Virus record (IMG/VR): IMGVR_UViG_3300025013_000002
Coordinates: 18,562-82,561 of that record
Direction: 5' to 3' (one strand)
Source: a virus
DNA length: 64,000 nucleotides
The position numbers and the translations under genes are program-made. Of the stretch, positions 15,151 to 48,659 are shown in pieces. A model generated the notes under the pieces. That model was not told the origin of the DNA and did not search any database. It saw only the letters and a program-made list of their open reading frames with translations. Position 1 is the first letter of the stretch, and each line of letters starts with the position of its first letter.

Positions 15151-16242
15151 CTATTCCGCCGCCTTCACGTTCAATAAAGGCTTGATATGGTCAATCACCC
15201 TCACGGTGACTCCCTCCTGCTTTGCCAGCACGTAATTGATGTCCTTGTAGGCGGCGGGTGCCTCATCTAGGATCGAACGGTCGGTCGAGCAGATGATCCC
15301 GCGCATCCCGTCCTTGAACTCCTGATAATCCAGCGTCTTCTTCGCCTGATTCCTGCCCATGACCCTACCGCAGCCGTGAGACGCCGAGGAGAGATAATGA
15401 GTCTCGCCCAAGCCCTCCGTGATATAAACCCCGTCCCGCATGTTGGCGGGGATTACGCCGAGCTGCCCAAGGTCCGCTGGAGTCGCACCTTTGCGGTGCA
15501 GGACTCCTTCAGCAGTTACAACGGCGTGATTGTGGTTCTCGTTGATGAGGTTCTTCATCAGGAGCTTGGAGACCTGAGAAATCCCAAGCACACCCAGAAC
15601 CGCCTTCATCATCCTCAATCGGTTCTCCAGTGCCCACTCAAGAGCGAAATTCATGTCCTGAAGGTACGCCTGTCCAAGCTCAGATTCAAGCTGGAACATC
15701 CGGCCCTGCTTCATATACCAGCCGCCGATTGTGTGACCTACGTTTCTGGAGCCTGAGTGGATCGTGATGCAGAGACTACCGGCTTGGTTCTCGCCCAACT
15801 CGATGAAATGATTTCCACCACCTAGCGTTCCGAGTTGAGTGCCTACTTTAGCCTGGACCTTCTGGAGTGTATTTTTGTCCAGCGCTTCGGACTTGAATTT
15901 TCTTGAGTAACTTTTCTCCGAAGCATGTGAGGAGAACCCCGTAGGGATTACCTTCAGGATGTCGTTGTAGATGCCACGCAGCGTTGTGACCTCAGCAGCG
16001 ACCATCTGCGTGTCCAAGCAGCACATGCCACACCCGATGTCGTATCCGACGAAACTCGGAGATATCATCCCATCCAGGAGAGCTACCCCTCCAATCGGCA
16101 GGTCGTAACCTGCGTGGACATCAGGCATGATCGCCAGCTTCTTCAGGCAATCCAATTCCAGTACATCAAAAATCTGCTGCTGAGCGGACTGCTCAATTTC
16201 CTCCAGCGGAACCATCGAGAACAACTTGTCGAGCTTACTCAT
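15151..16242 (-). CDS. rtcB: RtcB RNA ligase
   Basis: 363 aa; joins 2',3'-cyclic phosphate (3'-phosphate) and 5'-OH RNA ends using GTP and Mn2+. Signature segments are intact: MPDVHAGYDLPIGGVA, VGYDIGCGM (metal-binding Cys), LGGGNHFIEL, HSGSRNVG, ENHNHAVV, HRKGATPA and SSASHGCGR, which carries the guanylylated His. The protein is shorter than cellular RtcB. In a phage it most likely repairs tRNAs cut by host anticodon nucleases. ATG 16242 has GGAGGGAG upstream and a motif A palindrome before it. Confidence 0.95.
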   Translation of the reverse strand: MSKLDKLFSMVPLEEIEQSAQQQIFDVLELDCLKKLAIMPDVHAGYDLPIGGVALLDGMISPSFVGYDIGCGMCCLDTQMVAAEVTTLRGIYNDILKVIPTGFSSHASEKSYSRKFKSEALDKNTLQKVQAKVGTQLGTLGGGNHFIELGENQAGSLCITIHSGSRNVGHTIGGWYMKQGRMFQLESELGQAYLQDMNFALEWALENRLRMMKAVLGVLGISQVSKLLMKNLINENHNHAVVTAEGVLHRKGATPADLGQLGVIPANMRDGVYITEGLGETHYLSSASHGCGRVMGRNQAKKTLDYQEFKDGMRGIICSTDRSILDEAPAAYKDINYVLAKQEGVTVRVIDHIKPLLNVKAAE

Positions 16243-24968: not shown

Positions 24969-24997
24969 ATTTTAATTCACTTCTGAATTTTTGTCAA
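24969..24997 (-). promoter_or_regulatory. Sigma-70 promoter with motif A in the spacer
   Basis: TTGACA (24997-24992), 17 bp, TAAAAT (24974-24969). The spacer is almost entirely AATTCAGAAGTGAATT (24974-24989), so a bound dimer would exclude RNA polymerase. Confidence 0.75.
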
Positions 24998-45371: not shown

Positions 45372-46610
45372 TTATTCAAATTGCTCCCCAAATTTATCTG
45401 CGTCCTTCCTCTTTTGCTCCCTATCGACGAACGCATATTTCCTCGACATGTTGATGTCGCTGTGATCGAGGAAATCTGCGGTCTTCCTGATGTCCTGCGT
45501 AGCTTGGTAGTAGAAGGTCCCGGCTGAGTGCTTGGTGTCGTGGAAGCGCTTGTCTTCGAGCCCTGCTTCCTTTTTGACCTTCTGGAAAATGTTGTCCCAG
45601 TAGGATCTGGAGATGGGCACTTCCGGAGTCTCACCGCAGAAGAGCCAAGGGCTTTCCTGCTCCTTCTTGGTTAGCCCCTCTAGGTAGGAATCCAGCAGGC
45701 TCCTGAGCTTTGGGATCATGTCCAGATAATGTGTGTAGTCGCCCTGCTTCCTTTTGCTTGCTGGGATGGATACGAGATTTTCCTGGAGGTTCAGGTATTC
45801 CTTTTTTAATGAGCATATGGTTTTCCTCCTGAGCCCACCGAACGCGCCCATCCCTATAATGAGTGGAGCCCTCTTGTCTACCAGCTCCGCTGCTTCCAGA
45901 AGCCTATTCAATTCACCCACCGTGTAAAATTTATCCTCCCTGGAATCGTTCTCGGGCCAAGCAGGTACCACCTGAAGCTGATTGTATTCGAGGTACCGCG
46001 TGTTGTCTGGAGCTACGATCTTGGATTTCACGAAGCAGTTGATCATGTTGATGAGGGTGGTCCTGGCCCGGTTCACAGTCGAGTTCGAGTGACCTAGATC
46101 ATCCCGGCAGTAGACCATGTATGCTTGGAGGTGCTGCGGGAGTAGATCCTGAATGAAAACTGGGAGCCGGTCTGATAACTGGCGTGGCAAGGGCTTGTCG
46201 GTCTTCCAGGAGAACTCTCGGAAGAAGGGAGTCAGGTTTCGGTCTAGGCGTTGGAGGTAGAAGGCTCGTGTGTCGGCGTTGGAGAGCCCTTCGAGGTGGG
46301 TTTTGTAAAGCTCTGCGGCTCGATCCCAGGTCAATTTTTCCCGCTTCTGGTTCAGCTTGAAGCGGTCGTCCACGATCTGACCCAGGACCTGGTTAAGCCG
46401 ATCCTCGGCTTGTTTCTTGTGGATGCTGATCTGCTCCGCGATCTGCTTCCCATCGAAGGAGTAGGAGATGCTCCAGAATTTATCAGCCTCGTTTGTGGTG
46501 CTTCCACACTTTTTGCACGGAGGCATCTTCTTGGGAGGATCGGTGAAGCGCTTCCTGGCCCCACACTCGTAGCATCGGACCACCTTGAAAATCGAACCCT
46601 TTTCTCGCAT
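45372..46610 (-). CDS. int: Tyrosine-family integrase
   Basis: 412 aa site-specific recombinase. N-terminal zinc ribbon (CYEC, CKKC), a core-binding SAM-like domain (about 90-205) and a catalytic domain with GGLRRKTI (Arg I), SKRKQGD (Lys), HDTKH, LDHSDI (His) and the nucleophile in SRKYAFVD. The motif usually HxxR reads HDTK, i.e. Lys in place of Arg II. Own promoter (46631-46659) with a motif A site in the spacer; the tRNA-Gln half at 46942-46980 is the likely attP. Confidence 0.93.
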   Translation of the reverse strand: MREKGSIFKVVRCYECGARKRFTDPPKKMPPCKKCGSTTNEADKFWSISYSFDGKQIAEQISIHKKQAEDRLNQVLGQIVDDRFKLNQKREKLTWDRAAELYKTHLEGLSNADTRAFYLQRLDRNLTPFFREFSWKTDKPLPRQLSDRLPVFIQDLLPQHLQAYMVYCRDDLGHSNSTVNRARTTLINMINCFVKSKIVAPDNTRYLEYNQLQVVPAWPENDSREDKFYTVGELNRLLEAAELVDKRAPLIIGMGAFGGLRRKTICSLKKEYLNLQENLVSIPASKRKQGDYTHYLDMIPKLRSLLDSYLEGLTKKEQESPWLFCGETPEVPISRSYWDNIFQKVKKEAGLEDKRFHDTKHSAGTFYYQATQDIRKTADFLDHSDINMSRKYAFVDREQKRKDADKFGEQFE

Positions 46611-46630: not shown

Positions 46631-46659
46631 AATATAATTCAGACGTGAATGGAAGTCAA
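46631..46659 (-). promoter_or_regulatory. Integrase promoter with motif A in the spacer
   Basis: TTGACT (46659-46654), 17 bp, TATATT (46636-46631); AATTCAGACGTGAAT (46636-46650) fills the spacer. Confidence 0.75.
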
Positions 46660-46765: not shown

Positions 46766-46780
46766 AATTCAGACGTGATT
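46766..46780. promoter_or_regulatory. Motif A-like palindrome
   Basis: AATTCAGACGTGATT within the integrase arm region. Confidence 0.5.
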
Positions 46781-46860: not shown

Positions 46861-46885
46861 AGGCCCTCTTGGTTAAGGAGAGCCT
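46861..46885 (-). terminator. Hairpin terminator
   Basis: Minus-strand AGGCTCTC / GAGGGCCT stem (one G-U pair) then TTG; between the tRNA half and the integrase promoter. Confidence 0.45.
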
Positions 46886-46930: not shown

Positions 46931-46945
46931 AATTCACTTGTGAGT
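46931..46945. promoter_or_regulatory. Motif A palindrome at attP edge
   Basis: AATTCACTTGTGAGT; its right end overlaps the last bases of the tRNA-Gln half. Confidence 0.5.
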
Positions 46946-46980
46946 CAGAGTCCGTTGCCTTACCGCTTGGCGACACCCCA
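46942..46980 (-). other. attP candidate: 5' half of tRNA-Gln(CUG)
   Basis: Minus-strand 39 nt: acceptor strand TGGGGTG, TC, D-arm GCCAAGCGGTAAGGC, ACGGA, anticodon loop CTCTGAC, then TC. Identity to tRNA-Gln stops after the loop; no T-arm or 3' half follows. Integration by recombination here would rebuild the host tRNA gene with a phage-supplied 5' half. A promoter lies just upstream. Confidence 0.75.
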
Positions 46981-46998
46981 ATTTCAACTACTTACGAG

Positions 46999-47028
46999 AT
47001 TTTATTTTCCTTAGCAATAGTCTGTCAA
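46999..47028 (-). promoter_or_regulatory. Promoter aimed at the tRNA-Gln half
   Basis: TTGACA (47028-47023), 18 bp, TAAAAT (47004-46999). Predicted start about 11 nt before the tRNA 5' end. Confidence 0.65.
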
Positions 47029-47054: not shown

Positions 47055-47100
47055 AAAATGCCCTGTCTCGCGTCAGGTGGACCGCAAGATAGGGCATTTT
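47055..47100. terminator. Bidirectional terminator
   Basis: AAAATGCCCTGTCT pairs with AGATAGGGCATTTT (one G-U); A/T-runs on both ends. Ends the 48.0-47.1 kb operon. Confidence 0.8.
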
Positions 47101-47105
47101 GAAAT

Positions 47106-47459
47106 TCAAGTCAACATTCTTTTTCGTCTTTTTTTGGGCTGAGGATCTTGTTTGGAAACTTGGTGGAGCGCCTTGATTTCGTCGAGGAGGATTGAGGGGT
47201 CGATCTGCCACCTACCTTTAGGCCCAGTCTTCCAGCCTGTAAGTTCGCCAAGTTCCAGCTTTCCCTTCAGCCATCTGTCGGACTTGTTGATTTTGATTGA
47301 GGCTTGTTTGAGGCCGATCAGGAGAGGCTCTGGTCGATTTGGGCTAAGCGCTTCGATGGCCGCTTGGAGAATTTTTAATGTCGCGGCATGGACCTCGGCT
47401 TGGGCCTGGAGAAGCCTGAGTAACGATGCTGGGTCCGTGGAAATGGCTTGGGTCTGCAC
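47106..47459 (-). CDS. Excisionase-like winged-helix protein, 117 aa
   Basis: GTG 47459 with GGAGGG upstream. N-terminal helix (SLLRLLQAQAEVHAATLKIL) then a MerR/excisionase-type segment: LIGLKQASIKINKSDRWLKGK..LTGWKTGPKGRWQID, with a basic tail (KKRRKRM). Position next to the attP candidate and integrase supports an Xis role, but this is inference. Confidence 0.65.
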   Translation of the reverse strand: MQTQAISTDPASLLRLLQAQAEVHAATLKILQAAIEALSPNRPEPLLIGLKQASIKINKSDRWLKGKLELGELTGWKTGPKGRWQIDPSILLDEIKALHQVSKQDPQPKKRRKRMLT

Positions 47460-48244: not shown

Positions 48245-48259
48245 AATTCAGATGTGAAT
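48245..48259. promoter_or_regulatory. Motif A palindrome
   Basis: AATTCAGATGTGAAT in the late leader, 10 nt before the first start codon. Confidence 0.65.
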
Positions 48260-48269
48260 GGGAGAACGA

Positions 48270-48659
48270 ATGGGAGATTGGATTGAGATCAAACCGGAGC
48301 AAGTAAGGAAGGACAACAGCAACCTGTGGCGCATGGAGGGGGAGGGCACCTACATCAATGAGGAGTTAAAGAAATTGAAATTCAAAAAGGTTGAGCCTGA
48401 GCACATTGACCGGCTGAGAAACTGGGTGGCAGTCACTGGCTATGGAATTGCCCATCCTTACGAGGACTTGGATGCTCAATTGGATCTGCAGACTTTTATC
48501 GCGAGGCTAACCGAAGTAGATGCTGAAATTTTTGAACTGTTTCTGGAGAACTACTCGGTCAAGGAAATAGCTGCTGAGGTAAACCGAAATACCAAAACTG
48601 TGTACCGCAGGTTGAGCGGAATTATCGACCAGTACAAGACCTACTACCTGGAGGAATAA
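48270..48659 (+). CDS. Sigma-region-4-like HTH regulator, 129 aa
   Basis: ATG 48270 has GGGAGAACGA upstream; ATG 48258 has none. The C-terminus IFELFLENYSVKEIAAEVNR then NTKTVYRRLSGIIDQYKTY is a region-4-type helix-turn-helix, like RinA/ArpU-type late regulators. First gene of the late operon, directly before terminase, as these regulators often are. Confidence 0.75.
   Translation: MGDWIEIKPEQVRKDNSNLWRMEGEGTYINEELKKLKFKKVEPEHIDRLRNWVAVTGYGIAHPYEDLDAQLDLQTFIARLTEVDAEIFELFLENYSVKEIAAEVNRNTKTVYRRLSGIIDQYKTYYLEE

Follow-up and report, generated by a model that had tools for sequence, protein, structure and literature searches.

This virus record most probably belongs to a temperate phage with its attP upstream of the integrase gene; the phage's tyrosine integrase would act on the anticodon-loop portion of a tRNA-Gln(CTG) gene in the host, so that the promoter and 5′ half of that gene are replaced with the phage's own (we put the probability of this reading, made from sequence, at roughly 0.87). 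The source sequence is a linear IMG/VR virus record (G000) of 82,561 bp, possibly incomplete, whose final 64,000 bases make up the window analysed. The window carries 39 nt of tRNA-Gln (TGGGGTGTCGCCAAGCGGTAAGGCAACGGACTCTGACTC, 46980–46942, minus strand), which start at tRNA nt 1 and take in the acceptor 5′ strand, the D arm, the 5′ anticodon strand, the loop CTCTGAC (with CTG as anticodon) and the two bases that follow the loop in the 3′ anticodon strand; past TC, the phage reads ACAAG where the tRNA needs CCGT. A preliminary description of this DNA had the coordinates, the promoter TTGACA-18-TAAAAT and the 39-nt length of the tRNA half right, and its proposal that this is an attP carrying the 5′ half of tRNA-Gln is well supported by the adjacent integrase gene, the conservation of the half, the candidate arm repeats, the absence of a complete tRNA-Gln from the record and the identical half found in bacterial tRNA genes. 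Features of the region are collected in Table 1.

Table 1. Features of the putative attP region, in window coordinates
Feature	Position	Strand	Basis or remark
Tyrosine integrase (int), 412 aa	45372..46610	-	PF00589, E 5.8e-21; phrog_1 integrase, E 3.6e-36
int promoter TTGACT-17-TATATT, operator in spacer	46631..46659	-	Promoter scan; TTGACTTCC-ATTCACGTCTGAAT-TATATT
Exact operator copy inside int promoter	46637..46650		Pattern search
Candidate arm-type repeat AACTACCTAATACATAAA	46745..46762	-	Partly conserved in relatives; putative role
Operator copy, one mismatch	46767..46780		Pattern search
Candidate arm-type repeat AACTACCTAATCCATAAA	46810..46827	-	Partly conserved in relatives; putative role
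Terminator-like hairpin between att core and int	46861..46885	-	Sequence and alignment
Operator-like palindrome ATTCACTTGTGAGT astride 3′ end of tRNA half	46932..46945		One mismatch; putative function
Putative attP core, 5′ half of tRNA-Gln(CTG), 39 nt	46942..46980	-	Sequence and exact 38-mer match
Candidate arm-type site CAACTACTTA, inverted relative to int-side pair	46985..46994	+	Between −10 and tRNA nt 1; putative role
Sigma-70 promoter TTGACA-18-TAAAAT of tRNA half, without operator	46999..47028	-	11/12 consensus positions
Strong stem-loop between upstream ORF and tRNA promoter	47055..47100		Inverted repeat; −25.2 kcal/mol, z −5.7
Conserved 117-aa ORF beyond attP	47106..47459	-	86–92% identical in relatives

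The tRNA-Gln 5′ half

The 38-nt core, from tRNA nt 2 onward, was matched with zero mismatches in 3/398 Bacillota genomes by pattern search (G344, G030 and G303), and all three matches sit in complete tRNA-Gln(CTG) genes; the half is therefore not a chance resemblance. The matching tRNA suggests Bacillota, the only group sampled, as a candidate host. At the native attP neither ARAGORN nor the Rfam tRNA model called a tRNA, and a single SCARNA7 match in an Rfam scan of the half was set aside as chance. When the phage half was joined in silico to a natural 3′ half (that of L014), ARAGORN called tRNA-Gln(ctg), in keeping with the earlier suggestion that a rebuilt tRNA gene would receive a phage promoter and 5′ half. 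Annotated phages matching the tRNA half mostly do so in annotated tRNA-Gln genes; L014, considered as a sixth carrier of the half, was rejected, as it has a complete tRNA-Gln.

The integrase is common to five more viral records (100, 96, 90, 91 and 91% identity), and these five and the present record contain one copy each of the tRNA half, in the same place beside int. All six are unintegrated or incomplete contigs. An alignment-based scan for more distant viral relatives and a pattern search for the att junction each returned only those five records again, and INPHARED and PLSDB yielded integrase relatives that were remote only (~22–28% identity). The only tRNA gene in G000 is a complete tRNA-Thr(TGT) (L025, 10049–10124, minus strand), and none was found in the five relatives.

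Conservation follows the half closely. In a five-sequence alignment, 36/39 of its columns (92%) were invariant, as were 15/16 of the next columns past it (94%); beyond these, invariance drops to 55%. The three changes in the half, all in L006–L008, are T1 to A plus a C-to-T exchange at each of loop positions 32 and 38; these variants occur in natural Bacillota tRNA-Gln genes (A1 in L030 and L032; GGATTCTGATTC in L030), so that the half appears to track tRNA sequence rather than to drift. It is very improbable that the half is the remnant of a once complete phage tRNA-Gln gene whose 3′ half has been lost, even though a promoter precedes it and the phage has another tRNA (the tRNA-Thr): the relatives show three changes at most in the half, against 55% invariance in neighbouring non-coding DNA, the changes, which include loop positions 32 and 38 alike, yield variants seen in natural tRNAs, and the half is always in the same place beside int, with the 3′ half in no record. 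A complete tRNA-Gln elsewhere in the phage, named in the preliminary description as a finding that would speak for decay, was absent from the available sequence of this possibly incomplete record, and the Rfam tRNA model found one in 0/6 viral records (one of them 102.7 kb in size).

Integrase and flanking sites

The tRNA half lies 330 bp upstream of int. Residues 357–360 of Int are HDTK (45531–45542, minus strand), against HxxR in XerA and other relatives, and this exchange of HxxR for HxxK is kept in all five related integrases. A passage in PMC4499138 describes the arginine pair as normally highly conserved in the tyrosine integrase class; with lysine in place of the second catalytic arginine, Int activity is therefore not guaranteed, though the residue is conserved. 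The predicted structure of Int was poor (pLDDT 46), and a fold search with it gave no match. Departure from the HxxR motif, together with the presence of a resolvase-type serine recombinase (PF00239; 19899–20663, minus strand), would be in keeping with a phage that integrates elsewhere, by Int or by the serine recombinase, the tRNA half being irrelevant. This is very improbable, however, given that the serine recombinase has 254 aa and a weak match to the Recombinase domain, whereas the tyrosine integrase and the adjoining tRNA half are conserved in six records.

Between core and int, a candidate arm-type repeat AACTACCTAATNCATAAA occurs twice. A third candidate site, inverted, stands on the promoter side, and among the candidate arm-type repeats it alone (CAACTACTTA) was invariant in all records of a five-record alignment. 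Repeats on both sides of the core are candidate features of a lambda-type attP. The hairpin between core and int (46885–46861) is a perfect 14-bp inverted repeat in L006–L008 (AAAGGCCCTCTTGA/TCAAGAGGGCCTTT); the window's copy folds weakly (z −1.2).

On the other side of the core, the −10 of the tRNA-half promoter ends 18 nt before tRNA nt 1. This promoter is good in the window, L005 and L006 (10–11/12 consensus positions) but weak in L007 and L008 (8/12). The stem-loop upstream of it, for which the scanner gave no T-tailed terminator call, is possibly a transcription insulator. The conserved ORF beyond had no family assignment, and a fold search with its low-confidence model (pLDDT 58) came back empty; that it encodes an excisionase-type protein is speculative.

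A strong promoter directly before a half that ends close to the anticodon loop could also be understood if the transcribed half had a role as RNA, for instance by serving a phage RtcB-type ligase as substrate in the repair of cleaved tRNA-Gln. RtcB-type RNA ligases are typically tRNA repair enzymes, and the phage does encode one (15151–16242, minus strand; phrog_1075, E 1.2e-100). Nevertheless, the half stops two bases into the stem, which is not a usual anticodon cleavage point, and its position beside int and its att-like context already account for it; we consider an RNA role highly improbable.

An operator-like palindrome

A 14-bp palindrome, ATTCANNNNTGAAT, is present in 26 exact copies in the 82.6-kb record, compared with ~0.05 expected from shuffles, and a reversed-pattern control gave 0 in the same record; the five relatives have 9–32 exact copies each. 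Many copies immediately precede ORFs, structural genes included, and several fall between a −35 and a −10 (examples in the window are at 24975, 39599, 39629, 39710, 46637, 48167, 48246, 53510, 55983 and 59788). To judge from its sequence and distribution, the palindrome appears to be a phage repressor's operator within a stoperator-type regulon; among the ORFs scanned, a subset of the total, no helix-turn-helix repressor gene was found. Mycobacteriophages L5 and Bxb1 have stoperators, dozens of repressor-type sites throughout the genome and mostly intergenic (PMC3029335), and the present phage resembles them in having many copies of one site, mostly intergenic. L5 sites are, however, 13-bp, asymmetric and in one orientation with respect to transcription, whereas here the site is a 14-bp palindrome often located in promoters. 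A gene for a small protein resembling sigma-70 region 4 (PF08281, E 1e-8; 48258–48659, plus strand), a possible late-gene activator, immediately follows operator copies and precedes the terminase genes.

The int promoter has an operator copy and the tRNA-half promoter has none, as would suit a promoter needed in the lysogen. The palindrome astride the junction, where the half reaches its 3′ end, is perfect in L006–L008 (ATTCACAAATGAAT); most of one arm is tRNA sequence, and the single mismatch in the window therefore comes from the window's tRNA variant. At a site density of ~1 per 3.2 kb, we estimate the probability of chance overlap with the junction at roughly 0.4%. A tentative reading, which we think has the odds against it, is that the tRNA half doubles in a regulatory switch, in which the operator would be half tRNA and half phage sequence at the crossover boundary, such that bound repressor would block transcription from the host tRNA promoter into int at attL and recombination would strip the operator from the tRNA gene at attR. 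An integrase core site would explain the 16 conserved bases past the half equally well.

Predicted integration and known systems

The anticodon loop is one of three known tRNA crossover subsites (PMC8371274), and crossover is most likely to occur there because the shared segment ends just past the loop. Int would exchange strands within the shared anticodon loop, giving at attR the phage promoter, the phage 5′ half and the host 3′ half, a rebuilt complete tRNA-Gln gene, and at attL the host promoter and host 5′ half joined to phage DNA (ACAARTGAATTATTTG) and facing int. As its promoter is without the phage operator, the rebuilt tRNA would be expected to be transcribed constitutively while repressor silences other phage promoters. 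Of the two ends, attL would retain the junction operator, upstream of int, and the rebuilt tRNA at attR would be without it; acting with the hairpin and the int-promoter operator, this copy may keep the displaced host tRNA promoter off int in the lysogen. In several Bacillota genomes (L030, L032–L035) tRNA-Gln(CTG) lies within a tRNA array, and there the phage promoter would have to serve downstream tRNAs too.

Neither a lysogen nor an attL or attR was recovered: an integrase scan of genome contigs gave two Clostridia recombinases at 23–25% identity, and searches of 43 + 391 Bacillota genomes found no lysogen; these are weak negatives, Bacillota being only a candidate host. The preliminary description had gone further than the promoter arrangement allows in placing the host tRNA under ‘phage control’, given that the tRNA promoter is without an operator, the int promoter has one, and expression looks constitutive. 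Nor is there support for calling the tRNA ‘essential’: a genome can have tRNA-Gln(TTG) as well as tRNA-Gln(CTG), as in L029, where the two are side by side.

The arrangement, presented in the same description as exceptional, is a recognised minority. In the Islander survey, 159/3919 islands had 5′ tDNA fragments and 3760 had 3′ fragments (PMC4383910). Islands of the 5′-fragment kind share with the present case a tyrosine integrase, an att in the anticodon region of the tRNA and an element that brings the 5′ part; here, by comparison, there are free phage contigs only, the displaced fragment and rebuilt gene are predictions, and the operator at the tRNA junction is extra. On its sequence, the putative phage attP fits this known, uncommon 5′-fragment class, with the tRNA-junction operator as an added detail. 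A passage in PMC8371274, citing Williams 2002, describes use of the 5′ half as seldom met in bacteria. In Archaea, the att of pTN3-type integrases is a tRNA 5′ half, 41 bp long in the case of tRNA-Leu; integration parts the rebuilt gene from its original promoter, and it is then expressed from that of the element (PMC8371274, PMC5495485). The pTN3-type integrase gene holds attP and is split on integration, whereas in this bacterial tailed phage int would stay whole, with att upstream of it; a suicidal integrase of the pTN3/SSV type was rejected, as the core (46942–46980) is outside int (45372–46610).

The usual tRNA-targeting phages, such as Boilgate and Omega, have a core of 30–45 bp and supply the 3′ half, the host promoter being kept (PMC10865867). 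As in these phages, a tyrosine integrase would here rebuild the tRNA gene at one junction, and the core is of similar length; unlike in them, the promoter would be replaced. There is next to no chance that the phage instead relies on tRNA-dependent lysogeny, in which the core is ~10 bp and integration destroys the host tRNA, which is not rebuilt (PMC10865867) and is replaced by a phage tRNA of matching isotype: the phage does seem to target a tRNA gene and does encode a tRNA, but the shared segment is 38–39 nt reaching to the tRNA end rather than a ~10-bp core, tRNA-Gln was found in 0/6 records, and the phage tRNA, a tRNA-Thr, is of another isotype.

Under the favoured reading, that of an attP carrying the promoter and 5′ half of tRNA-Gln(CTG), a group of bacterial phages, their anatomy conserved across six metagenomic records, would join the uncommon elements that put their own promoter and 5′ half in place of those of the tRNA gene they target. 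Such a layout poses a testable question, namely how the host tRNA would be kept expressed while other phage promoters are silenced, and a second, how the displaced host tRNA promoter would be kept from driving int.
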